Assembly: GCF_024498355.1 (NCBI RefSeq) | Contig: NZ_CP101834.1 | Coordinates: forward strand, 21,179 to 85,178 | Length of the DNA stretch: 64,000 nucleotides | Source of the DNA: Bacillus pumilus | GTDB taxonomy: Bacteria > Bacillota > Bacilli > Bacillales > Bacillaceae | Reading direction: 5' to 3' | Part shown: positions 19,375 through 40,720 of the stretch, piece by piece | Layout: each line of letters begins with the position of its first letter | Numbering within the stretch: the first letter of the stretch is position 1 | Notes under the pieces: generated by a model | The model's input: only the letters and a program-made list of their open reading frames with translations | What the model was told of the DNA's origin: nothing | Databases searched by the model: none | Position numbers and translations under genes: made by a program

Positions 19375-19570
19375 AGCAGGCTTCAGCCTGCACGCAGTCG
19401 TCCGCGCGTAAAGAACGATGGAGGAACAATGCAGCTGTTGCAGCTGGTGACAACCAGGTGCTTACAGATGTTTGTTATCCCATGGTTTAGCGTGGAGCGA
19501 GATACCACGAAATGTTGGCCGGTGTTTTGTACCGGCTTACAGTTCGTGAGTAGACCCGAAGGGCAGCCCT
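19375..19570 (+). repeat. Repeat island, copy 1: partial A2 element (no A1)
   Basis: The first and most diverged copy of A2. It starts at the GCAGGC-UUCA-GCCUGC hairpin; the whole A1 part and the first hairpins of A2 are missing. The hairpin CACGAA..TTCGTG replaces the CATGAA..TTCATG of other copies, a paired change that keeps the stem. The CCTGG..CCAGG stem is replaced by CAGCTGG..CCAGGTG, also still paired. Confidence 0.8.
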
Positions 19571-19572
19571 GA

Positions 19573-19602
19573 TTGTCATTTGATTTGCATATCAGTTATA
19601 AT
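19573..19602 (+). promoter_or_regulatory. Promoter of a short intergenic RNA
   Basis: TTGTCA (19573-19578), an 18-nt spacer and a perfect TATAAT (19597-19602), located in the A2-B spacer of copy 1. Confidence 0.65.
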
Positions 19603-19608
19603 CTTTAC

Positions 19609-19736
19609 AACCCATCAATCCATTAAGGATGCATACGCATTCTAACAATGTACAATATGGCTGATCAACTACATGGTCAATCATTGTATAGTATTAAAGA
19701 GAGACTTGCCCAAGCATAAGGGAAGTCTCTTTTTTT
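19609..19736 (+). ncRNA. Candidate small RNA of about 128 nt
   Basis: It runs from the promoter at 19573-19602 to an intrinsic terminator (AGAGACTT and AAGTCTCT arms extended by CCC/GGG, then TTTTTT, 19700-19736). No frame with a start and ribosome-binding site lies between. ACAATG..CATTGT segments could form an additional stem. It could be a regulatory or antisense RNA. Confidence 0.5.
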
Positions 19737-19745
19737 ATGTTTAGG

Positions 19746-19880
19746 TGCTGCGATGTGAACGAAGTGAACATGCAGCACAGTCTTTTTTCTTTTGCAGCGT
19801 TAGCTGCCGAAGCAGGCTCGATGCCTGCGTTTTAATAAAAGGAAAGCTACAGCTTTCCTACCAAGCGTAAGCGCAATTCA
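19746..19880 (+). repeat. Repeat island, copy 1: B element
   Basis: B is a string of hairpins: the outer stem GCTGC..GCAGC (CTATGC..GCATAG in other copies, a compensated change), then CAGC-GTTA-GCTG, GCAGGC..GCCTGC and GGAAAGC-TACA-GCTTTCC. It ends next to a bidirectional terminator (19896-19922). Confidence 0.8.
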
Positions 19881-19895
19881 TTTACTTTTGAGAAA

Positions 19896-19922
19896 AGAAA
19901 AAACCGCGTTTATGCGGTTTTA
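19896..19922. terminator. Bidirectional terminator
   Basis: AAAACCGC and GCGGTTTT arms with A- and T-runs on both sides. It serves the end of B on the plus strand and the end of the methyltransferase operon on the minus strand. Confidence 0.75.
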
Positions 19923-20085: not shown

Positions 20086-21627
20086 TCACACTTGCACCAA
20101 GTGTGGGTGTTTGTTAAAACTGTTTATAGCTTTTTTGATCACTTTAGCAATCGCTTTTCCGATCTCAACTGGCACAGCGTTTGCTATTTGTTGTTGCATT
20201 GATGACAGGGACCCCTTGAATACGAATGAATCTTTTAAACCAAATAGTCTCGCGCATTCCCGTACACTTAAAATGCGATTTTCTATCGGGTGAGTGATTA
20301 GACTTTTTCTTGGATTTGCTATCGTGATCGATGGCTCATCCATATTAAGTCTTTTATAAACCGAACTATGTGTATTGCCACTCAACATCCTAGCATTTTT
20401 CAAATAATCTGGAATAGAAGTCCAGTTCTCCCCCTGCTTCACATACCGCATTCTTTCAATCGTATCTTCCCTACTCTTTGATATATCTGTTTGATTGGGA
20501 ACCCAATCATATAGATTTTCAAATGCTTCTCGTACTGTTTTATATTTAGAAGTATTGGGTTTCGGAAGTTCGATCGGTCCAATTTTTGAACCAATAAAAA
20601 TTGCACGTTTTCGTTTTTGTGCGGAACCCATATCAACGGCATTAATTACTCCATATGAAATGGTGAACTCGGACAATTCTTTTACAATCTCATCTTTAAA
20701 TTGACCATTCCCTGCCGTTAGGATTTCCGGCACGTTTTCTAGGACAAACACCTTACAATGCTTGTTTGCTTTCACTGCTTCAATATATTTTTTTACTAAT
20801 AAGTTATTTGGATTTTCAAGGAATGATGTTTTTCTGTTCGAGCTTGAAAATCCTTGACATGGGCTACCTCCAATCATGATAGGAGCCTTAATGTCATTGA
20901 ATATTGAGAAGTCAAAGTTTGTTAGATCGGCTTGCTGAATATGACTCCCCAAATTAGCTTTATACGTTTGAATTGCCTCTGCATCCTTTTCTAACGCCAA
21001 TTTTACAGTGAACCCTTCTTCAACAAAGCCCTGGTCGAAGATCCCAGCACCACTAAATAGACTAATTATCTGTAGTGGTAATTTATGCTGATTGACCAAA
21101 TTTGTTGTGATAGCGTTGTTTTCAACGCGATTTGTACCGGCATCCAAGTAGTCGAATATAGAAAATTGCTGGTAGCTGTCTCCGACTACTTGATCCAGTT
21201 GCTTTCTTGAAAGCAATACTTCTAGTCTGTTTTTTTGCTTGAAGACCTTCTTCTCTTTCTTTTTGAAAGAGAAGAAATCCTTGAGCTGACCTAGCTTGTT
21301 AGATAATGCTGTTTTTTTTTTGATTCCACGAATAAGGATTTGATCATCAAAGATCTCGATTTCTAATTGATCAACACCTGCGAATCCTTGCAAAGCATCC
21401 TTTTTACGAATATCAATCACAGGCTTATAACTTCCGTTATAGGCTCTTTTTGATACGGTGTTTCTAGTTTGTTCCGCAGGCACAATTGTTACTGTATTGC
21501 TCTTAGGATCAATGATGTAGTCAAAGTTTTTACCTACTTCAAATTGTGTTTGAAGTAGTTGGGCATCCTGGATGTAAATGCCTCTTTTGCTGGGTTTCGC
21601 TGTTCTCTTTTTAATCAACAATCTCAT
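20086..21627 (-). CDS. C5-cytosine DNA methyltransferase with N-terminal extension
   Basis: A 513-aa enzyme. Residues 1-180 form an extra lysine-rich domain of unknown fold. The methyltransferase core then follows: motif I (SLFSGAGIFDQGF), motif IV with the catalytic cysteine (GGSPCQGFSSSNRK), motif VI (VLENVPEIL), motif VIII (AQKRKRAIFIGS), and motifs IX-X (VRECARLFGLKDSF, QIANAVPVEIGKAI). The target-recognition region between VIII and IX is short. Possibly the N-terminal domain takes on DNA recognition. It overlaps the upstream gene by 17 nt. No restriction partner is present, so self-protection or anti-restriction is likely. Confidence 0.93.
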   Translation of the reverse strand: MRLLIKKRTAKPSKRGIYIQDAQLLQTQFEVGKNFDYIIDPKSNTVTIVPAEQTRNTVSKRAYNGSYKPVIDIRKKDALQGFAGVDQLEIEIFDDQILIRGIKKKTALSNKLGQLKDFFSFKKKEKKVFKQKNRLEVLLSRKQLDQVVGDSYQQFSIFDYLDAGTNRVENNAITTNLVNQHKLPLQIISLFSGAGIFDQGFVEEGFTVKLALEKDAEAIQTYKANLGSHIQQADLTNFDFSIFNDIKAPIMIGGSPCQGFSSSNRKTSFLENPNNLLVKKYIEAVKANKHCKVFVLENVPEILTAGNGQFKDEIVKELSEFTISYGVINAVDMGSAQKRKRAIFIGSKIGPIELPKPNTSKYKTVREAFENLYDWVPNQTDISKSREDTIERMRYVKQGENWTSIPDYLKNARMLSGNTHSSVYKRLNMDEPSITIANPRKSLITHPIENRILSVRECARLFGLKDSFVFKGSLSSMQQQIANAVPVEIGKAIAKVIKKAINSFNKHPHLVQV

Positions 21628-21856
21628 CACGCCCCAGATCCACTGGAATAAGATCAGTTGCGTATGCTTGGATCGTTATTCCCTTTTCTTTGCTGAAAGC
21701 CTCATATATGTGAATCTCATCGTCCAAAATGATTTGTGTAATTTCAAAAACATCACTGCCATTGCTATTCAAGCCTAGCTCTTTTCTTGTAATATCATCT
21801 AAGTCAATTTGCACAGCCAGTCCAATATTAAATTCAAATACCTCGTTCTTATTCAT
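21611..21856 (-). CDS. Small hypothetical protein, coupled to the methyltransferase
   Basis: An 81-aa acidic protein. The second ATG of ATGACAATG has correct spacing from AAAAGGAG. It is beta-rich (FNIGLAVQIDLDDI, DEIHIYEAFSKEKGITIQAY). Its end overlaps the methyltransferase start, which suggests obligatory co-expression. No recognised family. Confidence 0.6.
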   Translation of the reverse strand: MNKNEVFEFNIGLAVQIDLDDITRKELGLNSNGSDVFEITQIILDDEIHIYEAFSKEKGITIQAYATDLIPVDLGRDEIVD

Positions 21857-21877
21857 TGTCATTTCTCCTTTTGATAA

Positions 21878-22093
21878 TTAGTAGATTTTTGGTAAGTCCA
21901 ATTGTTTTTCGATTTCTTCTCGAACGTTTGAGATTTTTTCAATATCCCAAGAGAATTCGGGTAACACTTCTTTCGATGTTGCGCTATAAATTTGATACAT
22001 TTCGACTAACATATTGAAAATCACATTGTCGATATTATCTTGCGTTTCAATATGTCTTTTTGTTTGATAGTTGTCTTTGTATTGATTTGTCAT
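21878..22093 (-). CDS. Small hypothetical protein, first gene of the methyltransferase operon
   Basis: A 71-aa helical protein (MTNQYKDNYQTKRHIETQD..) with GAGGAACG upstream. It is the first gene after repeat copy 2, whose A1 edge lies about 36 nt upstream of this start. No recognised family. Confidence 0.55.
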   Translation of the reverse strand: MTNQYKDNYQTKRHIETQDNIDNVIFNMLVEMYQIYSATSKEVLPEFSWDIEKISNVREEIEKQLDLPKIY

Positions 22094-22128
22094 ATGACGT
22101 TCCTCATTTCCCTTTTATTTGTCTTTTT

Positions 22129-22725
22129 ACCTCCGAAGGGGTTGGTCCCCATAGGGGATGAATTTTCCCTTTTGACATGTAGAACGGACAACTGAGGATA
22201 GACGCATGACAAGAGGGCCGCAGGCATCGCGGTAGCGACAAGTGCTGATTTGCCTTTAGGTAGCGTAACCGTTGCTTCAGGAATGTTTAGCATAGGCTCT
22301 ACTGCTAAACATTTCTGAGGCTTACGAGTTACGACTGATCAGCATTTGCTCTTGTCATGTGGCTTGCCGTCTTATCAAAAAGTGTGGTAAAGAGCCGCAG
22401 GCGCAAACTTTGGCACGCTTTTTGATTAGCCGGCCCCGAATGTTGTACGCTTCGGAGGTCAAAAGGGAAATGTTATTTCAATGGCAGCCGTAGGCTGGCT
22501 ACCGATGGTTTTAGGAAGCTTCAGCTTCCGTCAAGCAGGCTCTAGCCTGCACGCAGTCGGCCGCGCGTGAAGAACGATGGAGGAACAATGCAGCTGTTGT
22601 CCTGGTGCAGCCAGGGCTTACAGATGTTTGTTATCCCATGGTTTAGCGTGGAGCGAGATACCATGAAATGTTGGCCGGTGTTGTGTACCGGCTTACAGTT
22701 CATGAGTAGACCCACAGGGCAGCCC
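22129..22725 (+). repeat. Repeat island, copy 2: A1 (22129-22472) and A2 (22484-22725)
   Basis: The A1 ends ACCTCCGAAG and CTTCGGAGGT are inverted repeats closing a domain of about 344 nt. Inside, CATGACAAGAG pairs with CTCTTGTCATG across about 150 nt, and a 12-15-bp hairpin is built on GTTTAGC/GCTAAAC. A2 holds GCCGTAGGC, GGAAGC-TTCA-GCTTCC, GCAGGC-TCTA-GCCTGC, CCTGG/CCAGG and GCCGGT/ACCGGC hairpins. In this copy the GTTTAGC hairpin has AGGAATG opposite CATTTCT, which is G.U on plus but A.C on minus. The 138-nt spacer before B (22726-22863) holds nothing recognisable. Confidence 0.9.
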
Positions 22726-22863
22726 TAAACAGGTTTTAATGAGTTAATGATCATTAATACAGGGGTTCAATCTCAAACTTAAACAGTGATGAGATAAGAA
22801 GGATAAGAGCGTGTAAGATGGAGTAAGAGAGCCACTGGAATCAAGCTGATACAAAATAAAAAA

Positions 22864-22999
22864 GCTATGCGATGACAACGAAGTTGGCAGAGCATAGCAA
22901 AGAATTTGTCTTTTGGGCAGCGTTAGCTGACCCAGCAGGCTCGATGCCTGCGTTTTAATAAAAGGAAAGCTTCAGCTTTCCATCCAAGCGTAGCGCAAT
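22864..22999 (+). repeat. Repeat island, copy 2: B element
   Basis: Hairpin series CTATGC..GCATAG (inner CAAC-GAA-GTTG), CAGC-GTTA-GCTG, GCAGGC..GCCTGC, GGAAAGC-TTCA-GCTTTCC. It is followed by the AAAACCGC/GCGGTTTT bidirectional terminator at 23003-23025. Confidence 0.85.
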
Positions 23000-23031: not shown

Positions 23032-23439
23032 TTAATCTATATCGCAAGGACAAATTAAATCATCTTGTATTACCTTGCCCTTTACAATGTTAACTTTTTG
23101 GACGTAATCCGATGGGGTATTTGCCCGAATTGCAATATCTATATTAAATTGTTTAGAAATGGATTCTAGCAGCTGCGTGTCGATTTCAAACGCTGCGGAA
23201 AATTGACATTCTATCACTTGGCATTTTTGATGATCCATCGTGATATTATGACATGAAAGATAATGCCTATCAGAATCCACTATAAGATAATCACTATCTG
23301 GTGTTAGCATTTCAAACTTCGATTTACTGTTTCTAATTTCAATCGAATTTCCCATTGGTATTAAACCATTTAAGAGAAACTGAATCAAATTAGAACGAAA
23401 CCCACTTAACTGAATATTCCCCTCTACCCAATCAGCCAT
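23032..23439 (-). CDS. YubB-like small protein, island family Y
   Basis: A 135-aa protein starting MADWVEGNIQLSGFRSNLIQ behind AGAGAGGTACAAATG. It aligns by eye with the next gene (MANYVEGRIAVTGKYTNLKK) and with the protein at 27266 (MTNFCKGRIKITG): short N-terminal strand, then a FLxxGL helix, a central SxAFEIDTQLLESISKQF segment and an IRxxxxDY motif. The N-terminal pattern recalls YubB ferredoxin-like proteins of plasmids and phages; that link is tentative. Function unknown. Confidence 0.6.
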   Translation of the reverse strand: MADWVEGNIQLSGFRSNLIQFLLNGLIPMGNSIEIRNSKSKFEMLTPDSDYLIVDSDRHYLSCHNITMDHQKCQVIECQFSAAFEIDTQLLESISKQFNIDIAIRANTPSDYVQKVNIVKGKVIQDDLICPCDID

Positions 23440-23474
23440 AACATTTGTACCTCTCTCTCGTCAGTAGTCTTTTT

Positions 23475-23894
23475 TTAATCATTATCAACTAATGTGAAAA
23501 CATCATCTCTTATGATTTGTCCGTTCTTAATGGAAATGTTCTGTTGGAAGTAATCAACCGTTTCTTCCCCTGAAGCATTTATGTTCAGGTTATATTTTTG
23601 AGCGATGTCCAAAAGTTCACTCGATTGGATTTTCCATTTGCATGTTAATTCCATGCGAACGGTGTAAATGTCATCACGTACTATTTCAAGGGGAATGTCA
23701 TCACCCCAAGAATGGACTACGAGACTTGTATCAATCATTAATAATGCTGCCCCTGTATCTTTGAGACATTGATCTTCTTCGTCTAGTGTTGGCGGAACAC
23801 CATTTGATTCAGTCACTAACCCTTGAAGAATAAACTTCTTCAAGTTCGTATATTTACCAGTTACAGCGATTCTTCCTTCAACATAATTCGCCAT
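23475..23894 (-). CDS. YubB-like small protein, island family Y
   Basis: A 139-aa paralogue of the neighbouring 135-aa protein, behind AAAGGAGGAAT. Shared features are the MANYVEGRIAVTG start, NLKKFILQGLV, a conserved IDTSLVVHSW strand and a C-terminal SSELLDIAQKYNLNI helix. Side-by-side paralogues imply a tandem duplication. Function unknown. Confidence 0.6.
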   Translation of the reverse strand: MANYVEGRIAVTGKYTNLKKFILQGLVTESNGVPPTLDEEDQCLKDTGAALLMIDTSLVVHSWGDDIPLEIVRDDIYTVRMELTCKWKIQSSELLDIAQKYNLNINASGEETVDYFQQNISIKNGQIIRDDVFTLVDND

Positions 23895-23912
23895 GTCTAT
23901 TCCTCCTTTAGT

Positions 23913-24653
23913 TCAAAAATTGGTAATATCATCGTCAATCGTTTGTTTCAAATAATCCATCTGTTCCCCCTCTTTACGACCTCTATGATAAGCCTCTACC
24001 TCACCAATTGATGGAGTTTTTACCGGCTTTGCCTTACCCGAAAAGCCCTTTGCTAGATCATTGTAAGCCCTCGAAACTTCTTTAGGGGTTATGACCATTA
24101 AGCCAAACTCTTGTTCCATTTCTTTAACTTGCTTTTCAAATTTTTCACTCAGTCCAGTTAGAAATCCTAACATATATGAATTTTTAAGTTCTTTTGTTTT
24201 CTCTTTCGTTCTAATTACAAAGGCATCTCTCTGATAATAGTTTTTGACGAATCTTGTGCTGTACTTACTTATAGCATCATAAGCAAGCACGTACATTTCT
24301 TTAGCTAAATTCACATCATTTTCGAAACCAAAGAAAATAATACTACTCTTCCTCCTTTTTTCACCGTTTAAAAATCTATTATGATAGTAGAATTTTACTC
24401 TGAAATTATTTGCTATTATTCCGGCTAATTGTCTTTCCCACCAAAATAATTTTTTATATGCAACAGCCTGTCCTTTAATAATTTCTTGCTTTTCATCTCT
24501 AGTTGTTTCTACATCACTCTGCTGAATATCATGTTTGATCATTAGCTTTTGAGCTAATAAGAAAGCACTTTGGGATTCCTCATCATTTTTTGAGTCATCC
24601 GCAATTGCCAGTAAACCTTTTATCTTCTTTATAATCGATTCATTTCTGTTCAT
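23913..24653 (-). CDS. DUF2786-containing protein
   Basis: A 246-aa protein; the ATG behind AAGGAGGGTG gives MNRNESIIKKIKGLLAIADD. Residues 5-50 match the DUF2786 pattern (KIKGLLAIADDSKNDEES..LLAQKLMIKH). A C-terminal domain follows, with WWERQLAGIIANNF and many aromatic and basic residues, as in the DUF2786-containing proteins of phages and conjugative plasmids. The molecular function of the family is not established. Confidence 0.7.
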   Translation of the reverse strand: MNRNESIIKKIKGLLAIADDSKNDEESQSAFLLAQKLMIKHDIQQSDVETTRDEKQEIIKGQAVAYKKLFWWERQLAGIIANNFRVKFYYHNRFLNGEKRRKSSIIFFGFENDVNLAKEMYVLAYDAISKYSTRFVKNYYQRDAFVIRTKEKTKELKNSYMLGFLTGLSEKFEKQVKEMEQEFGLMVITPKEVSRAYNDLAKGFSGKAKPVKTPSIGEVEAYHRGRKEGEQMDYLKQTIDDDITNF

Positions 24654-24666
24654 GTTTTCACCCTCC

Positions 24667-25266
24667 TTAGAAAATCTCTTCGAATCTAATACTTTCAATT
24701 GCAATGATTTCTTCTATAATTCTATGTTTTTCATTTTGGAGGAAATTTTGTGGACCTGTATAATCCCAATTGGCTACACATGTGTCTGACAACTGAATCA
24801 TTATTCTGGTTGCTCGACCTACAGCCTCTTTTAAGAATGTTTCTGAATCATAGAAGGGGTTTGTTAGAATTCCTTCGTCATAAGCGTAAATCCAATAATC
24901 AAGCAATTCTTCTGCCCATGCTTTTTTCAACTGCTCTTGCTGATCTTTGTCTTCAGGAATGCACACATTTTCTGAAATGTACAATCCGAGGTCGTAACCT
25001 GAAGTAATTTGTTTATCTGTTTCATTTAAAATTCGTTTGATTTCTCCCTTGCAATACTTATCAAACACGAAAGTGTTAGATTCTGTGACTTGCATCAATT
25101 CGTCCTGAATTTCATTAATCAATACTGGCAAGGCTTTTGAAGAACAGTATCTTTTTACATTATTTAATACCGCATAACCTGTTATATAAGAACCCTGTTT
25201 AATTTGTTCAATTGCTTCAAGGACATTTTCTACATCATTTTGTTTTTGTTCGATGTTACTGATCAT
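24667..25266 (-). CDS. Hypothetical protein with island domain H
   Basis: A 199-aa protein with the start at 25266 behind AAAGGAGC. Longer upstream readings run into repeat A1 and are rejected. The C-terminal about 90 residues (QLKKAWAEELLDYWIYAYDE..ILTNPF..IIEEIIAIESIRFEEI) resemble the N-terminal 100 residues of the 477-aa protein at 37657, so the domain has been recombined between operons. First gene after repeat copy 3. Function unknown. Confidence 0.6.
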   Translation of the reverse strand: MISNIEQKQNDVENVLEAIEQIKQGSYITGYAVLNNVKRYCSSKALPVLINEIQDELMQVTESNTFVFDKYCKGEIKRILNETDKQITSGYDLGLYISENVCIPEDKDQQEQLKKAWAEELLDYWIYAYDEGILTNPFYDSETFLKEAVGRATRIMIQLSDTCVANWDYTGPQNFLQNEKHRIIEEIIAIESIRFEEIF

Positions 25267-25294
25267 TGTTCTAGCTCCTTTGTTTTTCATTTTT

Positions 25295-25890
25295 ACCTCC
25301 GAAGGGGTACGCCCCTTCAGGGTGAATTTTTCCCTTTTGACAGGTAGAACGGACAACTGAGGATAGACGCATGACAAGAGGGCCGCAGGCATCGCGTTAG
25401 CGACAAGTGCTGATTTGCCTTTAGGTAGCGTAACCGTTGCTTCAGGGATGTTTAGCATAGGCTCTACTGCTAAACATTCCTGGGGCTTACGAGTTACGAC
25501 TGATCAGCATTTGCTCTTGTCATGTGGCTTGCCGTCTTATCAAAAAGTGTGGTAAAGAGCCGGAGGCGCAAACTTTGGCACGCTTTTTGATTAGCCGGCC
25601 CCGAATGTTGTACGCTTCGGAGGTCAAAAGGGAAATGTCACTTTAACGGCAGCCGGAGGCTGGCTACCGATGGTTTTAGGAAGCTTCAGCTTCCGTCAAG
25701 CAGGCTCTAGCCTGCACGCAGTCGGCCGCGCGTGAAGAACGATGGAGGAACAATGCAGCTGTTGTCCTGGTGTAGCCAGGGCTTACAGATGTTTGTTATC
25801 CCATGGTTTAGCGTGGAGCGAGATACCATGAAATGTTGGCCGGTGTTTTGTACCGGCTTACAGTTCATGAGTAGACCCGCAGGGCAGCCC
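25295..25890 (+). repeat. Repeat island, copy 3: A1 (25295-25638) and A2 (25649-25890)
   Basis: A full copy. A1 is closed by ACCTCCGAAG/CTTCGGAGGT. The CATGACAAGAG/CTCTTGTCATG long-range stem is intact, and the GTTTAGC hairpin has GGGATG opposite CATTCC (one G.U on plus). A2 ends in GTAGACCCGCAGGGCAGCCC. Its A1 edge lies 29 nt upstream of the minus-strand start at 25266. Confidence 0.9.
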
Positions 25891-26153: not shown

Positions 26154-26162
26154 TTATAGATC

Positions 26163-26318: not shown

Positions 26319-26348
26319 AAACCACTAGGGTACTCCCCTAGTGGTTTT
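26319..26348. terminator. Bidirectional terminator
   Basis: AACCACTAGGG and CCCTAGTGGTTTT arms around a 4-nt loop. The T-run overlaps the stop codon of the minus-strand gene 26347-26736. Confidence 0.75.
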
Positions 26349-31127: not shown

Positions 31128-34100
31128 TCAGGAGCATTTAGAAAACTTTTGATCTCCCCAGGCAATGTAGGTTTTTCCGTCCTTGTCTTGCTCTTTGGTC
31201 AAGAGCATGTCGAGAATGTCACCATCAAGCCCAAAACGCTCATTAATTTCTGAGCTATCAAGATCCTCATTCTTCATGAAACAATTTATCTTTTCTTTGC
31301 TCATGACCAGCTGTAACATGTTTGATTCTATGCTGTTTTCAACGGTCAAAAAGTGGATTTCTTTTTGATCCGTTGACGTATAACGGACAAAGCGTCCGAA
31401 AAATTGTTGCATGGCTGAGAAATTCCACTGCATTTCTAGCAATAGAACACGATTGACAAAATCAATGTTCATGCTGCTTGGAAGGGATTGCTGGGTGCAA
31501 ATTAAAATACCGTTTTCTGTATTCTTTAAATTTTTGACGATCTGTTTTCTTTGTTCAAATGACGCTTTATCTCCTGTGATGACAAACACAGGACGATCAG
31601 GAAAATGATCTTTTATATAACTGGCATATCGGTTTACAGCTTCTACATGAGTGCAACCGATGGCAACTTTATCATGCTGCCATTCTTTCAAAAGGTTAAT
31701 CGTTTCAATCGCTTTAGACGGCATTACGTTTGCGCTATGCTCTTTGAAACTATTAGGAAGGACACAGGCTTTTAAAAGGCTGTTTAATTGGTTGATGATC
31801 ATTAGCAGTGAATCTTTTCTTGTGTTCCCTGTGCTTTTATAAAGGTTAGTCATTCTATAAAATTCTTTCATGATGGTGCTATACAGATCCTTTTCGCTTG
31901 AATTAAACTGACAAAAATTCTGTTTTATTTCATAGATCGCCTTTCCTGCTACTTCTTCAAATGTACGTGTAATCATTGACCGATCAATCAAGCTTTTAAG
32001 ATGATCGCTATTGTATATCGATTGATCATGTTTACCGATCCCGAAGACTGTTACTTTTTCAGGTGAAAAGCATTGCTTGAACAAGCGATGCCCTTTTTTA
32101 TATGCCGGAAAAGGCTTGTTGTAATGCTTATTTTCTTTTTGTCCAAGCTGTTTGGTCTTTCGGTCCTCTTCGTATAGCGTTTCACACTTACAAAGAAAAT
32201 TGACCGAATTGTTATACATCAATTCAAATGCTGTGAAGGCTTCTGAAACATTGTTTCTTGTGCTGGTGGCACTTAATAAGACTTTATATTTAACGCGTCT
32301 GAAGCAATTTAAAACGGCTTTTGTGCGTTTTGATGAAGGATTAGAAATGTTGTCGGCTTCATCCAGTACAAGCATGACTTTTTGTGATTGTCTCTTGATG
32401 TACCGTTTTATAAATCTTTCGTACTTTGTCAGCATGTTAAATGTCATGATGACGATTTGTCCTTGTTCAATAGTTTCAATGTCTTTCATGCTTTTGATCT
32501 GTTTCACATTGAAACCATAACTTATCAAGATATCGTGCCAGTTGTTATTAATCGCGATAGCAGGCGCAACGATAAAAACGTTTTTGATGTTGCTGTGTTG
32601 TTGCCTGTACATGATTTGCGCTATAGCTGAAATGCTCTTTCCTGATCCTGTTCCCCACTGAAGATATGCATGATCTTTCATGAGTAGTTTTCCAGTATCG
32701 GTTTTTTGAATGTCATTCAGCTTAATAACATTTTGATTCTCTGAATCATGAATCTCTAATTGATCCAGAAAGCTTGTTATTTGTTCGGTCGGCTTGATCT
32801 CCGTCAATTTCTTTTGTGCTAGTGTGTACGTTCTCTGTTTCTTCAGGAACAGCTTTAAAAAACGTTTATCCTGAAAAGGATAATAACCATCACGCAGCAA
32901 GTCCGAAAAATCCGTGCTTTTTGTTCCTTTCTGCATATTTAACAGCCGTTTTTCTTTATAACTGTATGCTTTCAGTTTCAAACCGTATCTTGTTTTCACA
33001 AGTGCGGTTCTTTTATCCTTGGGCTTTCCATGTTGTTCTTTTAAGACTCTTTTTAAATAATTCAGTACCTTTTTTTCGGTTAGCTTCTTTTTGTTCCATT
33101 CCTCCATGTCCATTTCATGCGGTTTTGATTGTGTGAAATAGCGTTCCACATATTGCTCACATTTTGCGGCTTTATGGCTAATTGCCGGATGCCTCTTTAT
33201 ATCAAAAAGAAGCTTGTTCACCTTGTCTAAAAATCCTTTTTTACTTTCGTGAAGTTCCGCAAGCTCAGATCGTATTTTATGCCGGACTTGTTCTTTTTGC
33301 TGAAGCGCAGGATGAACAAAATTTTCATAGATGAATTGTGAATCTAGCCCTTCTGTGTAATTGATTTCATATGGAACATTTGGAAGGTGTTCACTTTTGT
33401 TTTGAAAGATCATTACTTTTGTTTCATAATGATCAACGCCCATTTGTTTAAAGGCGTTTGTCGGCAAGGCAAGCTGACAAATAAAATTAAATGAATCATT
33501 TACTTCATTTATCATGCCAGTGTAAAAGTCATCATTCAAAAAGCTATTAGGTACAATGAGAGCTAATATGCCCCCTGGCTTCAACAATGTGCTTGCTTTT
33601 TGGACGTAAAATAATTGACTTAAAATTTCATTGCTGTTGACTTTCCACCTTAAATTGAAAGGAGGGTTGCCCACTATGAAATCAAATTTCATGTCTGGAC
33701 TATAGAAACGTATATCCTCATTTGAAAGATTAGCGTTAGGGTACAAATGGCGCGCCACTTTAAACGCCTTTATATCAAGCTCATTACCGTACACGTTTTC
33801 TTGATTAGGGCAATAGTTGAAGAAATTACCCATGCCACATGTTAGATCCGCAATTAAATCTTTTTCAGTCGGTTTTAAACACTCCAACAAGAACCTTGAA
33901 AGCTCATGAGGCGTAAAGAATTGACCATTTTCAATTTCCTTTTTTGCTTCTGAATAAAGGTGATAATTTTCGAAGGAAGAAAAGGAAAGACCATGAAGCC
34001 CCCCTTCTCCTGTATAAGAGTTGAAAATGTCCTCCTTTGTGATTTGCATATCCTCGCATTTGTTGTTTTCAATAAGATATAAAATCTTCTCGTTGATTGC

Positions 34101-34145
34101 TTTTCTTTGTTCAAACGGTATGATTTGACTTATTGTTTTGTACAT
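31128..34145 (-). CDS. N6-adenine methyltransferase fused to SF2 (SNF2-like) helicase
   Basis: A 1005-aa protein. Residues 60-300 form an N6-methyltransferase, with motif I-like LIADLTCGMGNF and catalytic FIVGNPPFNL. About 300-480 is a basic helical linker. About 480-960 is a superfamily 2 helicase: Walker A WGTGSGKS, DEAD-like VLDEADNI, motif III LLSATS, motif VI FFGRFVRYT. Methylase-helicase fusions of this kind occur in polyvalent phage and plasmid proteins, and the DarB anti-restriction protein of phage P1 has the same two activities. An anti-restriction role, entering with or acting on newly transferred DNA, is the leading inference. It could also be part of a defence system, but no partner nuclease is seen. 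Confidence 0.88.
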   Translation of the reverse strand: MYKTISQIIPFEQRKAINEKILYLIENNKCEDMQITKEDIFNSYTGEGGLHGLSFSSFENYHLYSEAKKEIENGQFFTPHELSRFLLECLKPTEKDLIADLTCGMGNFFNYCPNQENVYGNELDIKAFKVARHLYPNANLSNEDIRFYSPDMKFDFIVGNPPFNLRWKVNSNEILSQLFYVQKASTLLKPGGILALIVPNSFLNDDFYTGMINEVNDSFNFICQLALPTNAFKQMGVDHYETKVMIFQNKSEHLPNVPYEINYTEGLDSQFIYENFVHPALQQKEQVRHKIRSELAELHESKKGFLDKVNKLLFDIKRHPAISHKAAKCEQYVERYFTQSKPHEMDMEEWNKKKLTEKKVLNYLKRVLKEQHGKPKDKRTALVKTRYGLKLKAYSYKEKRLLNMQKGTKSTDFSDLLRDGYYPFQDKRFLKLFLKKQRTYTLAQKKLTEIKPTEQITSFLDQLEIHDSENQNVIKLNDIQKTDTGKLLMKDHAYLQWGTGSGKSISAIAQIMYRQQHSNIKNVFIVAPAIAINNNWHDILISYGFNVKQIKSMKDIETIEQGQIVIMTFNMLTKYERFIKRYIKRQSQKVMLVLDEADNISNPSSKRTKAVLNCFRRVKYKVLLSATSTRNNVSEAFTAFELMYNNSVNFLCKCETLYEEDRKTKQLGQKENKHYNKPFPAYKKGHRLFKQCFSPEKVTVFGIGKHDQSIYNSDHLKSLIDRSMITRTFEEVAGKAIYEIKQNFCQFNSSEKDLYSTIMKEFYRMTNLYKSTGNTRKDSLLMIINQLNSLLKACVLPNSFKEHSANVMPSKAIETINLLKEWQHDKVAIGCTHVEAVNRYASYIKDHFPDRPVFVITGDKASFEQRKQIVKNLKNTENGILICTQQSLPSSMNIDFVNRVLLLEMQWNFSAMQQFFGRFVRYTSTDQKEIHFLTVENSIESNMLQLVMSKEKINCFMKNEDLDSSEINERFGLDGDILDMLLTKEQDKDGKTYIAWGDQKFSKCS

Positions 34146-34161
34146 TGCCGGATCTCCTTTC

Positions 34162-34956
34162 TTACTTTTTTAGATATGTGTTGGCAAACTCATTTGCAAA
34201 CTCCATTGAATGAAATTCGATAGACACTTTGCCATTTTTGAACGCCTTGAAGCTTTTAATTTTATTGAAATTTTCCATTTCATATTTATCAAAAATAGGA
34301 GCCTTTCTTGAACCTTCCCGCATTTCTTTTTCAATCGATACAAATTTATTAATTTTTGTTGGCTCTCCATTTTCAAACAGTGATAGAGCATCAAATAACT
34401 TATCTAATTTTTCTTCACTTCTATAATAAATTCTTAAATTTCCGTACCAGTCATCTTCAATGTGTAGATAATTGGGTAAGTGCAAAGTGTGTTTTTTGAC
34501 TTCAAATTTATATACGGCATCTTTTATTTTGTTCTTTATTTGCTCGTTTGCCATTTCTGCAAAAGAGTAGCCGCCTAATTGTTCAAATAAATGTTCTAGC
34601 ACCTCTTCAAACGTGATGAATTGTTCAAAAGAGTAACTTTTATAAATAAATGAATAATCAAATTCAACATTGTATTTCTTTGAAAAATATTGTGTAATCG
34701 CTTCTGTAAATGCATCATTACATTCTTGTTGAGCTTTTTCTATTTCATTAACCACGCCATATTTCCGAATATATTTTTCCTTAATCGAATCGACTAACAG
34801 TAATGTATTTACACTCTTATAAGCTTGTTCCAAGGCTTTCCTTGCTACTTTATAAGACTCTTCCTCTTTTAAACAAAATTGTTCATCTTCTTGTGAAATG
34901 CGGCTAGTGTTATCAATTGTGACTTCTTCAAAACGTTGTAATAGGTTTAGGTTCAT
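34162..34956 (-). CDS. Island family S protein, upstream of the methylase-helicase
   Basis: A 264-aa protein behind AAAGGAGC. It is closely related to the 261-aa protein at 35905, with shared ISQEDEQFCL, YFSKKYNVEFDYS and KHTLHLPNYLHIE segments and an almost identical C-terminus (IKSFKAFKNGKVSIEFHS). No motif of known function. First gene after repeat copy 6 and likely co-transcribed with the 1005-aa gene 16 nt downstream. Confidence 0.65.
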   Translation of the reverse strand: MNLNLLQRFEEVTIDNTSRISQEDEQFCLKEEESYKVARKALEQAYKSVNTLLLVDSIKEKYIRKYGVVNEIEKAQQECNDAFTEAITQYFSKKYNVEFDYSFIYKSYSFEQFITFEEVLEHLFEQLGGYSFAEMANEQIKNKIKDAVYKFEVKKHTLHLPNYLHIEDDWYGNLRIYYRSEEKLDKLFDALSLFENGEPTKINKFVSIEKEMREGSRKAPIFDKYEMENFNKIKSFKAFKNGKVSIEFHSMEFANEFANTYLKK

Positions 34957-34989
34957 TTTTGTTTTGCTCCTTTAGTTTTTTTATTTTTG

Positions 34990-35584
34990 ACCTCCGAAGG
35001 GCTTTGCCCTTCAGGGTGAATTTTTCCCTTTTGACAGGTAGAACGGACAACTGAGGATAGACGCATGACAAGAGGGCCGCAGGCATCGCGTTAGCGACAA
35101 GTGCTGATTTGCCTTTAGGTAGCGTAACCGTTGCCTCAGGAATGTTTAGCATAGGCTCTACTGCTAAACATTCCTGGGGCTTACGAGTTACGACTGATCA
35201 GCATTTGCTCTTGTCGTGTGGCTGGCCGTCTTATCAAAAAGTGTGGTAAAGAGCCGCAGGCGCAAACTTTGGCACGCTTTTTGATTAGACGGCCCCGAAT
35301 GTTGTACGCTTCGGAGGTCAAAAGGGAAATGTCACTTCAATGGCAGCCGTAGGCTGGCTACCGATGGGTTTAGGAAGCTTCGGCTTCCGTTAAGCAGGCT
35401 TTAGCCTGCACGCAGTCGTCCGCGCGTAAAGAACGATGGAGGAACAATGCAGCTGTTGTCCTGGTGGAACCAGGGCTTACAGATGTTTGTTATCCCATGG
35501 TTTAGCGTGGAGCGAGATGCCATGAAATGTTGGCCGGTGTCTTGTGCCGGCTTACAATTCATGAGTAGACCCGGAGGGCAGCCC
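34990..35584 (+). repeat. Repeat island, copy 6: A1 (34990-35332) and A2 (35343-35584)
   Basis: A full copy with several single-arm changes. CATGACAAGAG faces CTCTTGTCGTG (U.G on plus, C.A on minus), and GCCGGT faces GCCGGC (U.G on plus). The GGAAGC hairpin has a TTCG loop closed by C-G, the very stable UUCG tetraloop when read as plus-strand RNA, where other copies have TTCA. Confidence 0.9.
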
Positions 35585-35716
35585 GACAAAAGAATTTAGG
35601 AGAAGAAAATAAAAAAGCGATAAGGATCGTGCTGAAGATCATTAGAAAGAATAAAAAGGTCATTGAAGTTCGTACTAATAACAAAAGGTTTCAAAACTGA
35701 TGGATTCCACTATGCA

Positions 35717-35868
35717 GCTATGCGATGACAACGTAGTTGGCAGAGCATAGCAAAGATTTTGTCTTTTGGGCAGCGTTAGCTGACCCAGCAGGCTCGATGC
35801 CTGCGTTTTAATAAAAGGAAAGCTTCAGCTTTCCTACCATGCGTAGGCCAGCGATTAGCTGGCCAAAA
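35717..35868 (+). repeat. Repeat island, copy 6: B element
   Basis: CTATGC..GCATAG, CAGC-GTTA-GCTG, GCAGGC..GCCTGC, GGAAAGC-TTCA-GCTTTCC and GGCCAGC..GCTGGCC hairpins. Confidence 0.85.
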
Positions 35869-35870: not shown

Positions 35871-35908
35871 GAAAAAACCACTAGGGATTTCCCAAGTGGT
35901 TTTTTCAC
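35871..35908. terminator. Bidirectional terminator
   Basis: GTGAAAAAACCACT and AGTGGTTTTTTCAC arms, with A/T runs inside both arms so it can act on either strand. It overlaps the end of the 261-aa gene. Confidence 0.75.
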
Positions 35909-36690
35909 TTACTGAGATATGTGTTAGCAAATTCATTTGCAAACTCCATTGAATGAAATTCGATAGACACTTTGCCATTTTTGAACGCCTTGAAGCTTTT
36001 GATTTTTCGAAATATATCAAAGCTATATTTTTCAAAAATAGCGTGGTGCTTTGAACCTTCTCCCATTTCATATTTAATCTGATTCAAAGCATTTGTTTCG
36101 ATTGGCGAACCATTTTCAAATAACATCAAGGCATCGAATAATTTTTCTAGTTTTCCTTTGCTTTGATAGAAGATTTTAAAAGATTCGAACCATTCTTCAA
36201 TATAGAGAAAATTTGGTAAGTGCAACGTGTGTTTTTTTACTTCGAATCTATATACGGATTTTTTTATTTTTTCTTTTATTTGCTCGTTTGCCATTTCAAC
36301 AAACGTAAAGCCACCTAATTCCGCGAATAAATGGTCTAACACCTCATCAAGCGTGATTAATTGTTGATATGAGAATTTTTGATCAAGTTTTGAGTAATCA
36401 AAATCAACATTGTATTTTTTTGAAAAATATTGGGTTATTGCTCTAATAAAATTATAACCACAATTTACCTTGGCTTCTTTTATTTTAGAAATCACATCAT
36501 TTGTATGAATATATCTTTCTTTAAGCGTTGACCCTGACCACAATTCATTTATGACTTTGTATGCTTTATCTATGGCTTTCCAAGCTTCATCATAAGAGTG
36601 TTGCTCATTTAAACAAAATTGTTCATCCTCTTGTGAAATGCGACTTGTGTGATTAATTTCAACAGTTTCTAATTTTTGTAATAGGTCCAT
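35905..36690 (-). CDS. Island family S protein
   Basis: A 261-aa paralogue of the 264-aa protein at 34162, alone in its operon between repeat copies 6 and 7. RBS AAAAGGAGC. The C-terminal 25 codons are almost identical to the paralogue in DNA as well as protein, while the middle has diverged. This suggests recent gene conversion or selection on that end. Confidence 0.65.
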   Translation of the reverse strand: MDLLQKLETVEINHTSRISQEDEQFCLNEQHSYDEAWKAIDKAYKVINELWSGSTLKERYIHTNDVISKIKEAKVNCGYNFIRAITQYFSKKYNVDFDYSKLDQKFSYQQLITLDEVLDHLFAELGGFTFVEMANEQIKEKIKKSVYRFEVKKHTLHLPNFLYIEEWFESFKIFYQSKGKLEKLFDALMLFENGSPIETNALNQIKYEMGEGSKHHAIFEKYSFDIFRKIKSFKAFKNGKVSIEFHSMEFANEFANTYLSK

Positions 36691-36723
36691 TTTTCTTTTG
36701 CTCCTTTTGTTTTTTTATTTTTG

Positions 36724-37321
36724 ACCTCCGAAGGGGTATGCCCCTTCAGGGTGAATTTTTCCCTTTTGACATGTAGAACGGACAACTGAGGATAGACGCA
36801 TGACAAGAGGGCCGCAGGCATCGCGTTAGCGACAAGTGCTGATTTGCCTTTAGGTAGCGTAACCGTTGCTTCAGGGATGTTTAGCATAGGCTCTACTGCT
36901 AAACATTCCTGGGGCTTACGAGTTACGACTGATCAGCATTTGCTCTTGTCATGCGGCTGGCCGTCTTATCAAAAAGTGTGGTAAAGAGCCGCAGGCGCAA
37001 ACTTTGGCACGCTTTTTGATTAGCCGGCCCCGAATGTTGTACGCTTCGGAGGTCAAAAGGGAAATGTCACTTTAACGGCAGCCGTAGGCTGGCTACCGAT
37101 GGGTTTAGGAAGCTTCAGCTTCCGTCAAGCAGGCTCTAGCCTGCACGCAGTCGGCCGCGCGTAAAGAACGATGGAGGAACAATGCAGCTGTTGTCCTGGG
37201 TGAAAGCCAGGGCTTACAGATGTTTGTTATCCCATGGTTTAGCGTGGAGCGAGATACCATGAAATGTTGGCCGGTGTTCTGTACCGGCTTACAGTTCATG
37301 AGTAGACCCGGAGGGCAGCCC
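36724..37321 (+). repeat. Repeat island, copy 7: A1 (36724-37067) and A2 (37078-37321)
   Basis: A full copy. The CCTGG/CCAGG hairpin has a larger loop (GTGAAAG) here than in other copies. This length change breaks the plus-strand reading frame that starts at ATGCAGCTG and so argues against a protein-coding role for A2. Confidence 0.9.
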
Positions 37322-37468
37322 TAAGTAGTTGGAATGCAATTTTTATAGAAGGAATATAAGATGTCTTTTCTAAAACAATGGAATTGCTGTTAGATGGACC
37401 TATAAGGCTTTATTACGTCCATAGAAGGCATAATGAGGGTGATGTCGTTAAAACTTAGGAGAAGGAAC

Positions 37469-37620
37469 GCTATGCGATGACAACGTAGTTGGCAGAGCAT
37501 AGCAAAGGTTTTGTCTTTTGGGCAGCGTTAGCTGACCCAGCAGGCTCGATGCCTGCGTTTCAATCAGAGGAAAGCTTTAGCTTTCCTACCATGCGAACGC
37601 CAGCGAAAAGCTGGTGCTTC
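37469..37620 (+). repeat. Repeat island, copy 7: B element
   Basis: Standard B hairpins with a GGAAAGC-TTTA-GCTTTCC variant and a GCGAACGCCAGC..GCTGGTGCTTCGC end hairpin. Confidence 0.85.
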
Positions 37621-37652: not shown

Positions 37653-37656
37653 CGCT

Positions 37657-39090
37657 TTAATATTGGTCTATTAACTTGCCCTTAAAGTTGAACATGATAT
37701 CAAAGAGTGTCCTCATCTGCATATCTTTGTCAACCACACTACTTTCACTTTCAAGTTCATATTCAACTAGCAGTTCGTCATCTAAAATTATAGTTGACTT
37801 GATATATGAATAAATGTCTACTCCATCAATTGATCCTCCATCACTGACATTCCAAAACCCATCACCATATATCTCCATGACGACCTTTAATCTGTCACTG
37901 CTGTCACTGAAATCATCTATTGAAAAATCGCGAACATCGATAACATGATGAAATGGCGCTTGCATGTATTGATCTAAATGACCATTCACAATTGAGGCTA
38001 AAATAAGATAAGAGTGATATTCTTCAATGTTAAACCCTTTCTCGCTTGTGATTTCAACCGTATCTTTGTCATACAAAGGTAATTCTCTTACATCAAAAAT
38101 CTTCCCATTCATTTTTTCAAATGAATAATGATTGGGACCTTCAATATAAACACATTTGTATGAATCTTGGTCGCGATAATGGAGAAACGCCTTTCGTTCT
38201 TTGAATTCTCCCCTATTCAATAGAATATGAGGAAATGCCCTCAATTCATTATCAGATTCAACCGTCATATGCAAGAAGATTTGACCATCCACAATCAAAT
38301 TGAAATGATGAAAGGAATCAACTTTTACTTGATCAACTTGCCCACCAAAGGATAAATTTCCCTTGCCATAAAATTTCGTTTCAATTTTAGCCCTTTCTTT
38401 AAATTCTTCTAGTGACCAATTCATAAAATCATATGAATCATTACTTTCTAGGTAATCATTGAAATGCCCATGAGCTATTGAAGCCAAAATTAATAGACGA
38501 TGATATTCGTTTTCTTTCAGCATCAAAGCAGACGCTAATTCAGGATTATACAAAGGTAATTCCTTAATGTTGAATTCATGTCCCTTCTTACTAAACAACG
38601 TATATATTCCTTCTCCTGCCTCATATACACGTTTAAATGAAGTTTGATCACCAAACTCTAAAAATTCTGATCTGTGAACATATTCTTCATCGATATCCAA
38701 TTCTTCATGAAAGTTAATGCACTCAACCGCACTAATTTCTTTGATCATTTGATCTGCAATATCACCTAGATCAATTGGATTATCCCAATGTTTTTTTGCA
38801 ATTGGTGATTGACGTAACAGATACGTCATACCAAAGCTAATGGCTTCAAATGCAAATTTTTTAAAATTAGAAAATGGATTTGTATAGATGAATCCGTAAG
38901 TGTTCACATGGACAAAGAATAAATTCAATTCGTCTTCCCATGCTTTTCGCATGAGCTGAACCTGTTTAACATACAATTGAATATTTTCTGTCGTTTGCAG
39001 ATTTAGTGTAGACGTATCCATATGGATTGACCTTTTCTCTTGTATGACCTCAATCAAGTTTTCTATACAAAATAAAGTAAATGTTTTCAT
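37657..39090 (-). CDS. Chimeric island protein: domain H plus two family L domains
   Basis: A 477-aa protein behind AAAAGGAGC. Residues 30-135 resemble the C-terminal domain of the 199-aa protein at 24667 (LMRKAWEDELNLFFVHVNTY, IYTNPF, IKEISAVECINFHEE). About 145-310 and 310-477 are two tandem copies of the family L domain, with LPLYNPE..LLILASIAHGHFN and LPLYDKD..YLILASIVNGHLD. The N-terminal 20 residues resemble those of the neighbouring 182-aa protein. The chain is therefore a mosaic of modules that occur separately in other operons of the island. Function unknown. Confidence 0.7.
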   Translation of the reverse strand: MKTFTLFCIENLIEVIQEKRSIHMDTSTLNLQTTENIQLYVKQVQLMRKAWEDELNLFFVHVNTYGFIYTNPFSNFKKFAFEAISFGMTYLLRQSPIAKKHWDNPIDLGDIADQMIKEISAVECINFHEELDIDEEYVHRSEFLEFGDQTSFKRVYEAGEGIYTLFSKKGHEFNIKELPLYNPELASALMLKENEYHRLLILASIAHGHFNDYLESNDSYDFMNWSLEEFKERAKIETKFYGKGNLSFGGQVDQVKVDSFHHFNLIVDGQIFLHMTVESDNELRAFPHILLNRGEFKERKAFLHYRDQDSYKCVYIEGPNHYSFEKMNGKIFDVRELPLYDKDTVEITSEKGFNIEEYHSYLILASIVNGHLDQYMQAPFHHVIDVRDFSIDDFSDSSDRLKVVMEIYGDGFWNVSDGGSIDGVDIYSYIKSTIILDDELLVEYELESESSVVDKDMQMRTLFDIMFNFKGKLIDQY

Positions 39091-39157
39091 GGTTTTTTGC
39101 TCCTTTTTTCTTTTTTATCTACGAAAATTTAACGTCACATTCAGGATCATCTTAAAT

Positions 39158-39706
39158 TTAATTATTTAATAAAATTTTAATAAATGCCCACAATTCATTA
39201 TTGGTTTCAGCCGTAGAAGTGAGTATAGTTTGATCGTCCACTATCAATTTAAAATGATGGAATGAATCTACAAGTACATTTTCTATTTCGTTATCAATAT
39301 AGGATTCAGCTGTCAATGTTCCTTTACCGTAAAAGTACGTTTCAACCCTTGCTCTTCTTGAAAAATCTTCATTGGTCCAATTTAAATACTCATACGATTT
39401 AAAAGGCGTAGCCAGCAAATGATCTAAATGCCCATGGGCAATTGAAGCCAAGATTAATAATCGGTGAAATTCGCTTTCCATCAGCCCCAATTTTGAAGCT
39501 AGTTCAGAGTTATACAAAGGTAATTCCTGAATGAAAATATCTTTTCCTTTGCCAGTAGACAGCGTGTATTTCCCTTCACCACTCTCATATACTCTCTTGA
39601 TCGACATGTGATCCCCAAACTCCAAAAACTCTGATCTGTGGATTGAGTTTTTTCCATGAATGACTCCAATCAATTTTTCTTTACAGAACGCAATGAATGT
39701 TTTCAA
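39158..39706 (-). CDS. Island family L protein
   Basis: A 182-aa protein. The TTG at 39706 behind AAAAGGAGC aligns with the start of the 477-aa neighbour; an ATG 21 nt upstream, next to GGAGGT at the repeat edge, is the alternative. It has LPLYNSE and RLLILASIAHGHLD and is close to the middle domain of the 477-aa protein. First gene after repeat copy 8. Confidence 0.65.
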   Translation of the reverse strand: MKTFIAFCKEKLIGVIHGKNSIHRSEFLEFGDHMSIKRVYESGEGKYTLSTGKGKDIFIQELPLYNSELASKLGLMESEFHRLLILASIAHGHLDHLLATPFKSYEYLNWTNEDFSRRARVETYFYGKGTLTAESYIDNEIENVLVDSFHHFKLIVDDQTILTSTAETNNELWAFIKILLNN

Positions 39707-39731
39707 TTGTTTTGCTCCTTTTTTCATTTTT

Positions 39732-40330
39732 ACCTCCGAAGGGGTTTGTCCCCTTCAGGGGATTAATTTTCCCTTTTGACAGGTAGAACGGACAACTGAG
39801 GATAGACGCATGACAAGAGGGCCGCAGGCATCGCGGTAGCGACAAGTGCTGATTTGCCTTTAGGTAGCGTAATCGTTGCTTCAGGGATGTTTAGCATAGG
39901 CTCTACTGCTAAACATTCCTGGGGCTTACGAGTTACGACTGATCAGCATTTGCTCTTGTCGTGTGGCTTGCCGTCTTATCAAAAAGTGTGGTAAAGAGCC
40001 GCAGGCGCAAACTTTGGCACGCTTTTTGATTAGCCGGCCCCGAATGTTGTACGCTTCGGAGGTCAAAAGGGAAATGTCACTTTAACGGCAGCCGTAGGCT
40101 GGCTACCGATGGGTTTAGGAAGCTTCAGCTTCCGTCAAGCAGGCTTTAGCCTGCACGCAGTCGTCCGCGCGTAAAGAACGATGGAGGAACAATGCAGCTG
40201 TTGTCCTGGGTGAAACCAGGGCTTACAGATGTTTGTTATCCCATGGTTTAGCGTGGAGCGAGATACCATGAAGTGTTGGCCGGTGTTTTTTACCGGCTTA
40301 CACTTCATGAGTAGACCCGCAGGGCAGCCC
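39732..40330 (+). repeat. Repeat island, copy 8: A1 (39732-40077) and A2 (40088-40330)
   Basis: The rightmost full copy. CATGACAAGAG faces CTCTTGTCGTG (U.G on plus). In A2, CATGAAGTGT pairs with ACACTTCATG, a two-sided change relative to CATGAAATGT/ACATTTCATG in copy 4. Confidence 0.9.
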
Positions 40331-40386
40331 AAATATAATTTCTGATGTTATAATAAGGAAAAAGATTCAAAGGAGATCATGAATAC

Positions 40387-40572
40387 ATGTGCGGAAAAGT
40401 AATCGGATCAGAAGATCTTTCATACATAAACGGATATAAAGATGAAGGAATAGAGACGTTAAAAAAGGAATTAGAAAAACTAATGGATATAAGGTTTAAA
40501 AACAAAAGAGTTTACACTGAAGAAAGTACACTTGCACATAGAGTCAGTGAGCTTGAAGACCGACTCAAATAA
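40387..40572 (+). CDS. Small helical protein nested between A2 and B
   Basis: A 61-aa plus-strand protein after AAAGGAGATC and a TATAAT at about 40350. It is helical and coiled-coil-prone (LKKELEKLMDIRFKNKRVYT, LAHRVSELEDRLK). Like the frame at 25956, it lies in the A2-B spacer and runs against the island operons. It ends 5 nt before B. Confidence 0.6.
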   Translation: MCGKVIGSEDLSYINGYKDEGIETLKKELEKLMDIRFKNKRVYTEESTLAHRVSELEDRLK

Positions 40573-40576
40573 AAAA

Positions 40577-40720
40577 GCTATGCGATGACAACGAAGTTGG
40601 CAGAGCATAGCAAAGGTTTTGTCTTTTGCAGCGTTAGCTGCCCAAGCAGGCTCGATGCCTGCGTTTCAATAAGAGGAAAGCTTCAGCTTTCCTTCCATGC
40701 GAATGCAAGCGAAAAGCTGG
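40577..40720 (+). repeat. Repeat island, copy 8: B element
   Basis: CTATGC..GCATAG with inner CAAC-GAA-GTTG, then CAGC-GTTA-GCTG, GCAGGC..GCCTGC and GGAAAGC-TTCA-GCTTTCC. The CAGC hairpin lacks the usual GG before it. This copy forms the right border of the island. Confidence 0.85.

Follow-up and report, generated by a model that had tools for sequence, protein, structure and literature searches.

Modules that alternate with minus-strand operons along a 64,000-nucleotide (nt) stretch of Bacillus pumilus DNA (contig NZ_CP101834.1, positions 21,179 to 85,178; "the window") are EGeRS1, the "establishment gene regulatory sequences" known from pLS20-type plasmids. An 85,178-bp contig, one of two in the genome, contains the window, and comparison with relatives leads us to read this contig as a circular plasmid. 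Our computations show that two parts of the modules, A1 and A2, adopt a conserved branched fold and that selection acts on this fold in the plus strand, the strand that serves as template for the seven minus-strand operons. We think it rather probable that A1 and A2 fold in the strand entering a recipient cell and act there as a large single-stranded DNA (ssDNA) promoter for anti-defence operons, with the third part, B, serving as a terminator pair. We thus report a known element family on a new plasmid and revive a testable mechanism that published work had dismissed.

Identity and layout of the modules

A first-pass annotation of this DNA had proposed seven copies of A1, eight of A2, and eight of B, all of which we recovered in place. 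The series spans positions 19374 to 40704 of the window, between minus-strand operons, with successive A1 copies 1.7 to 4.8 kb apart. The 300-nt stretches of A1 are 87 to 99% identical, depending on the reference copy. In A2, a 120-nt core is 92 to 98% identical to the reference and an 85-nt start is 78 to 88% identical, and the 131-nt core of B is 90 to 100% identical in six copies and only 63 to 64% in the first and last. The annotation had correctly described the parts and their alternation with minus-strand operons but had given their order as A1, A2, spacer, and B. Along the gene strand, B comes first, followed by the spacer, A2, A1, the ribosome site, and the gene, which places A1 at the 5' end of each following operon. 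The base of A1 (helix 2) lies 60 to 70 nt ahead of a start codon with a ribosome site in all seven cases, three of the seven starts having been re-picked and differing from the mechanical list of open reading frames (ORFs). The module at 19374 consists of A2 and B without A1. The G+C content of A1 and A2 is 48% and 53%, respectively (one copy each), compared with 32 to 42% across 2-kb steps of the window. Two small hairpins are present in all eight B copies, and a scan of seven copies scored the plus-direction hairpin as terminator-like in five and the minus-direction hairpin in four; we read B as a terminator pair on these grounds. The copies are as follows, with plus denoting the strand that folds best.

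22118..22473, plus: A1 copy 1, gene-proximal branched fold
25283..25639, plus: A1 copy 2
28294..28650, plus: A1 copy 3
30215..30571, plus: A1 copy 4
34977..35333, plus: A1 copy 5
36712..37068, plus: A1 copy 6
39722..40078, plus: A1 copy 7
19374..19569, plus: A2 without A1; first encountered if the plus strand is transferred
22477..22725, plus: A2
25640..25890, plus: A2
28651..28901, plus: A2
30572..30822, plus: A2
35334..35584, plus: A2
37069..37321, plus: A2
40079..40330, plus: A2
19740..19870, no strand: B copy 1, divergent, both small hairpins
22863..22993, no strand: B copy 2, terminator-like hairpins in both directions
26162..26292, no strand: B copy 3, terminator-like hairpins in both directions
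29045..29175, no strand: B copy 4, terminator-like in the plus direction
30966..31096, no strand: B copy 5, terminator-like hairpins in both directions
35716..35846, no strand: B copy 6, terminator-like hairpins in both directions
37468..37598, no strand: B copy 7, both small hairpins, neither scored terminator-like
40574..40704, no strand: B copy 8, divergent, both small hairpins, neither scored terminator-like

EGeRS1 was described on pLS20-family plasmids by Val-Calvo et al. (2021, PMC8708921), whose main sections present it as a multicopy, GC-rich, inverted-repeat-rich element of 420 to 750 bp that falls into two sequence groups and lies just ahead of the ribosome sites of establishment operons, and state its mechanism as unknown. 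All seven A1 copies of the window precede a ribosome site and an operon, the eighth A2 lacking an A1, and the modules are GC-rich with stable predicted structures (fold z scores of -5.0 to -13.6). With identity above 60% marking family membership, A2 is 71.9 to 73.1% identical to pLS20 over 171 to 177 nt. A1 gave no blastn hit to pLS20 and is 72.8 to 74.0% identical to the plasmid of Bacillus glycinifermentans SRCM103574 (CP035233), the strain of the clade IIIA reference plasmid in PMC8708921. A more distant search, of the kind the annotation had called for, detected relatives in 46 plasmid records, 45 of them from Bacillus and including pLS20. Within the family, A2 of the window occurs in 4 of 80 genomes (its own included), all in one of six genera, and one of the four matches is a 69-nt stretch only. 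A2 also occurs without A1 in pSHB9 (L016, position 3864), and one pLS20 element has no A2. Relative to EGeRS1 of the pLS20 family, the window plasmid has seven full copies plus one A2 without A1, and we did not find the B part described in the main sections of PMC8708921. The modules therefore do not belong to an unrecognized class, as had been supposed.

The likeness to the large GOLLD and ROOL RNAs that the annotation had suggested extends to size and complexity only. A search of the 64 kb with 4227 Rfam families gave no match at the gathering score, on which grounds a known RNA family was set aside, and the strand evidence given below points to DNA. A phage origin was likewise dropped, as neither a near nor a distant search of a phage collection matched the modules. 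In the Creative Commons-licensed literature of PubMed Central, we found EGeRS1 only in PMC8708921 and no later answer on the control of pLS20 establishment genes or on Gram-positive ssDNA promoters. As a separate observation, a block of several EGeRS1 operons (encoding a methylase-helicase and a C5 methyltransferase) is present twice in CP035229 (L021/L022), with the genes split differently in each copy.

The conserved fold and the strand that forms it

The stems listed in the annotation are present in the predicted folds, and folding is far beyond chance. When five sequences were each compared with 60 dinucleotide-preserving shuffles, all three A1-type sequences folded 9.9 to 13.6 standard deviations (SD) below the shuffles and both A2 sequences 5.0 to 6.9 SD below. 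An alignment of 24 of the 32 A1 sequences in hand, from nine plasmids, yielded a consensus fold of 111 pairs with 99.4% of cells paired, compared with at most 46.3% in slid controls of the fold. Both sides were altered in 27 of the 111 pairs, and none of 500 column shuffles scored as high on any covariation measure, bearing out the claim of a large, multicopy structured element with real covariation. The 22 gene-proximal pairs (helices 2 and 3) are invariant, and the outer helices covary; together, these patterns suggest a sequence-read site at the gene end of A1.

Calculated with DNA parameters, the plus strand was the more stable one in 30 of 30 A1 sequences (hits longer than 250 nt; by 10.5 to 25.7 kcal), in 28 of 28 A2 sequences (by 3.6 to 15.4 kcal), and in all five full EGeRS1 elements of pLS20 (by 24 to 33 kcal). 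For B the difference was small, with 36 of 40 sequences favoring the plus strand and all but one by less than 5 kcal. Shorter length limits applied to A2 and B, and identical copies of A1, A2, and B were dropped. The energy gap between strands exceeded that of all 60 shuffles in four of the five sequences tested (three of three A1-type, one of two A2). We also counted G-T and A-C cells on majority Watson-Crick pairs in the folds of both strands, obtaining ratios of 83:21 in A1, 30:15 in pLS20-type A1, 45:26 in A2, and 3:4 in B. Pairs that were mainly G-T versus mainly A-C numbered 7:1, 8:2, 5:1, and 0:0, respectively, and on pairs predicted in the folds of both strands the cell ratio was 57:20 in A1 and 7:0 in pLS20. 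Plasmid F, for which the identity of the transferred strand (T-strand) is known, served as a control: of the 14 strongest windows, which overlap, 12 favored the T-strand, as did all four of the upstream regions chosen. A Hok-family gene, with an mRNA that is expected to fold, immediately precedes one of the two exceptions.

The transferred strand and the proposed mechanism

The origin of transfer (oriT) core of MobL plasmids, CTTATGCTCTT, is found at 7742-7755 of pLS20 (L013) and, as CTTATGCTC|TT, at 12007-12020 of the window plasmid (contig C2; L017). Across six aligned MobL oriTs, CCCCTTATGCTCTT is invariant and has hairpins immediately on its 5' side. Of the best 80 of 88 MobL loci in GTDB genomes, 75 have the core with at most two mismatches no more than 3 kb upstream of the relaxase gene, in 71 cases on the strand of that gene and in 4 on the opposite one; two of the five loci without it have less than 350 nt upstream, and one has a shorter match. 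A hairpin lies 5' of the core at 74 of the 75 loci and 3' of it at 23. Twelve MobL loci contain CCCCTTATCCTGTT, which resembles the classical MOBP nick YATCCTG. Plasmids of the pWBG749 type share the core and have hairpins 5' of it, and relaxase-mediated recombination delimited their nick within CCTTATGCTCTTACGG (O'Brien 2015). Because of the strand of the core, the 5' hairpins, and this nick within the core, we assigned the relaxase-gene strand as the T-strand. Judged from these sequence features, the plus strand of the window plasmid would be transferred, with its 5' end at the MobL core and the relaxase gene entering first. As the core is on the relaxase strand, the transferred strand would be the template strand of the operons.

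More broadly, the folding strand is the oriT strand in 9 of the 11 EGeRS1 plasmids examined; in the other two, the "replication-relaxation" plasmids L024 and L026, no shared core was recognized. In three MobQ plasmids, whose oriT type has a known nicked strand, the fold and a hairpin-TAAGTGCGCC motif share a strand. This motif is the MOBQ oriT consensus (PMC3832669). An nhmmer search of stretches reaching up to 10 kb from the 80 MobL relaxases gave no EGeRS1 hit at an E value of 1e-3. Since the A2 model gave 36 hits in known plasmids, the search works, and these relaxase stretches either lack EGeRS1 or are too short to reach it.

Several loci stood out in this survey. In four Emergencia loci (L089, L090, L091, and L101), the core with its 5' hairpins is oriented opposite to the relaxase gene, so that transfer would run away from the relaxase. 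The oriT of plasmid plas3 of Stutzerimonas stutzeri (L106) matches Exiguobacterium loci, though the record is labelled Pseudomonadota, reflecting either transfer or a mislabelled sequence. By eye, L024 contains a GC-rich tandem array of units of about 110 bp at 29201-29730, just after the replication-relaxation gene.

In the mechanism that we propose, the entering plus single strand would fold at every module in the recipient, host RNA polymerase would start from the end of A1 that lies nearest the gene and is invariant in sequence, and the downstream anti-defence operon would be transcribed straight from the single strand until B terminates transcription. A2 may help the polymerase to bind, or it may serve to prime the second strand. 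With second-strand synthesis the fold would disappear, leaving no double-stranded promoter, and read-through would be blocked, a block that has been demonstrated for EGeRS1-B of pLS20 (PMC8708921); expression would consequently be brief. The chances seem to us even that Bacillus conjugative plasmids use very large branched ssDNA promoters, with one switch per establishment operon, active in the entering single strand alone, and that the published T-strand of pLS20 is wrong. The proposal bears on how Gram-positive conjugative plasmids switch on anti-defence genes only upon arrival. If the T-strand is the template, the ssDNA-promoter route of F-type plasmids would also operate in Bacillus, where its architecture would be different and larger, and the nick position published for the MobL prototype would need re-examination.

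In Frpo/ssi, described for F-type plasmids by Samuel et al. (2024, PMC11541004), the folded transferred strand is the template for anti-defence genes, as we propose for EGeRS1. In contrast to Frpo, EGeRS1 is larger, branched, and repeated before each operon, has no consensus -35/-10 that we could find, belongs to a Gram-positive host, and in the window plasmid is separated from oriT by tens of kilobases. Establishment operons of related plasmids are also controlled by EGeRS2 (p576, clade II), but this is a repressor-controlled ordinary promoter (PMC8708921), whereas the seven A1 copies here have no promoter-like site. The same paper rejected an ssDNA promoter for EGeRS1 on the grounds that none was visible in the fold and that the nicked strand was the non-template strand, the rejection resting mainly on the latter. 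Our folding-strand, covariation, and T-strand results oppose that case.

Several observations weigh against an ssDNA promoter. The pLS20 nick was mapped in vitro to the other (minus) strand (Ramachandran 2017), which makes the T-strand the non-template strand, contrary to our assignment by oriT homology; the mapped nick is about 40 nt from the core, so that the two conflict in both strand and place. The nine agreeing plasmids represent only two relaxase types and hence are not nine independent tests. The modules lie about 28 to 50 kb after the core in the window plasmid and 61 to 79 kb after it in pSHB9, and this late entry means that they are not a classical leading region. Furthermore, the composition of the plus strand, with more G+T, explains part of the energy gap, the gap of the window A2 was within its own shuffles (10 of 60), and the G-T to A-C ratio of A2 on pairs common to both strand folds was nearly even, at 11:9. 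A scan of the folded arm in nine A1 and four of the five pLS20 elements gave no convincing -35/-10, with weak candidates in two of nine A1 and all four pLS20 elements. Finally, all eight terminator-like hits inside A1 are on the plus strand and none is in the gene direction, and a simple terminator thus does not explain the block to sense read-through.

The folded-arm scan is insensitive, since it found no site in four F-plasmid regions either, and we regard TTGTC[AG] ... TACG[CA]T, with a spacing of 19 when a branch is skipped, as a tentative lead to a putative promoter site in the fold. A consensus scan of both strands found no promoter-like hit inside any of the seven A1 copies; hits totaled 53 compared with 50.3 by chance, and two on the plus strand overlap A2 copies (35530 and 40312). 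A CS-6 hexamer of the single-strand origin type in A2 (TAGCGT) was dropped, as pLS20 does not conserve it. The nick sequence published for pLS20 is exact in the oriTs of pLS20 and pBatNRS213, altered in that of CP035233, and not found in those of the window plasmid, CP035229, and CP123978, the last two being identical to each other. It follows the core at 1 of the 75 loci, that of the pBatNRS213 strain itself. A relaxed pattern for the pLS20-type nick hairpin was not found in the window plasmid's own genome, and the MobA_MobL family (PF03389) was not found.

The selected strand would also fit a plus-strand structured RNA, antisense or stand-alone, which might arise by read-through from the transfer operon and repress the operons or have an unrelated role, as RNA tolerates G-U pairs well and the transfer genes of both pLS20 and the window plasmid are read in the plus direction. 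We consider such an RNA improbable. Reporter tests detected no promoter in EGeRS1-B of pLS20 in either orientation, the reverse included (PMC8708921), no Rfam family matched, and in L024 and L026 the folding strand of A1 opposes the transfer genes, whose read-through would not yield a plus-strand RNA. The RNA gene proposed in the annotation is accordingly not supported, and transferred ssDNA fits better.

A folded T-strand could instead serve mainly as a single-strand origin or loading site, priming second-strand synthesis or binding a protein, with gene control secondary. The two A2 copies without A1, at 19374 of the window and 3864 of pSHB9, would suit this explanation, but one A1 per operon at a fixed 60 to 70 nt from the start codon is unexpected of an origin alone, and we judge it just as improbable as the plus-strand RNA. 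Least probable of the three is an mRNA leader, in which the sense transcript itself would fold and regulate elongation or translation as an attenuator, antiterminator, or riboswitch-like element. Although A1 adjoins the ribosome site and EGeRS1-B halts read-through in its native orientation (PMC8708921), the sense strand folds worse in every A1 and A2 compared, the prevailing type of wobble pair does not suit a sense-strand fold, and the 338 bp upstream of EGeRS1-B likewise had no promoter in reporter tests (PMC8708921). We set the leader aside because of strand polarity and retain the ssDNA promoter as the favored explanation.

The establishment operons and neighboring genes

The genes behind the seven modules probably help the plasmid to survive arrival in a new cell. 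The operons, all on the minus strand, are as follows.

20086..22093, minus: operon 1, after A1 copy 1; short ORF (start 22093), ORF 21611-21862, and C5 cytosine methyltransferase 20086-21630
23032..25266, minus: operon 2; start re-picked at 25266 (mechanical ORF 24667-25458), DUF2786/DUF7168 protein 23913-24704, and two phrog_2715 proteins
26347..28279, minus: operon 3; four ORFs with no Pfam match above the cut-off, one matching phrog_2715
29419..30197, minus: operon 4; hypothetical protein and LPD11 (polyvalent-protein-associated domain) protein
31128..34956, minus: operon 5; 1005-aa N6-methylase plus DEAD-box helicase protein and 264-aa protein
35905..36690, minus: operon 6; 261-aa ORF that repeats parts of 34162-34956
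37657..39706, minus: operon 7; two ORFs without Pfam match, start re-picked at TTG 39706

Positions 34158-34753 and 35901-36493, in neighboring operons, share two stretches that are 76% and 85% identical; this repeat is a duplicated establishment gene, each copy under its own module. Outside the modules, the plasmid carries transfer genes, including a MobL/MobP2 relaxase gene at 12307-13479 of contig C2, and the window encodes an Alp7A-like partition protein. Among named plasmids, those closest to this one come from B. pumilus. We also observed a Rap-like TPR protein at 42096-43256 of the window and a second TPR protein at 51300-52409 with a RapH_N match just below the cut-off. Ahead of a VirB11-like gene lie an ORF matching the Cry-type domain family PF18449 (54389-55441) and another matching the thioester domain PF20610 (56207-58507).

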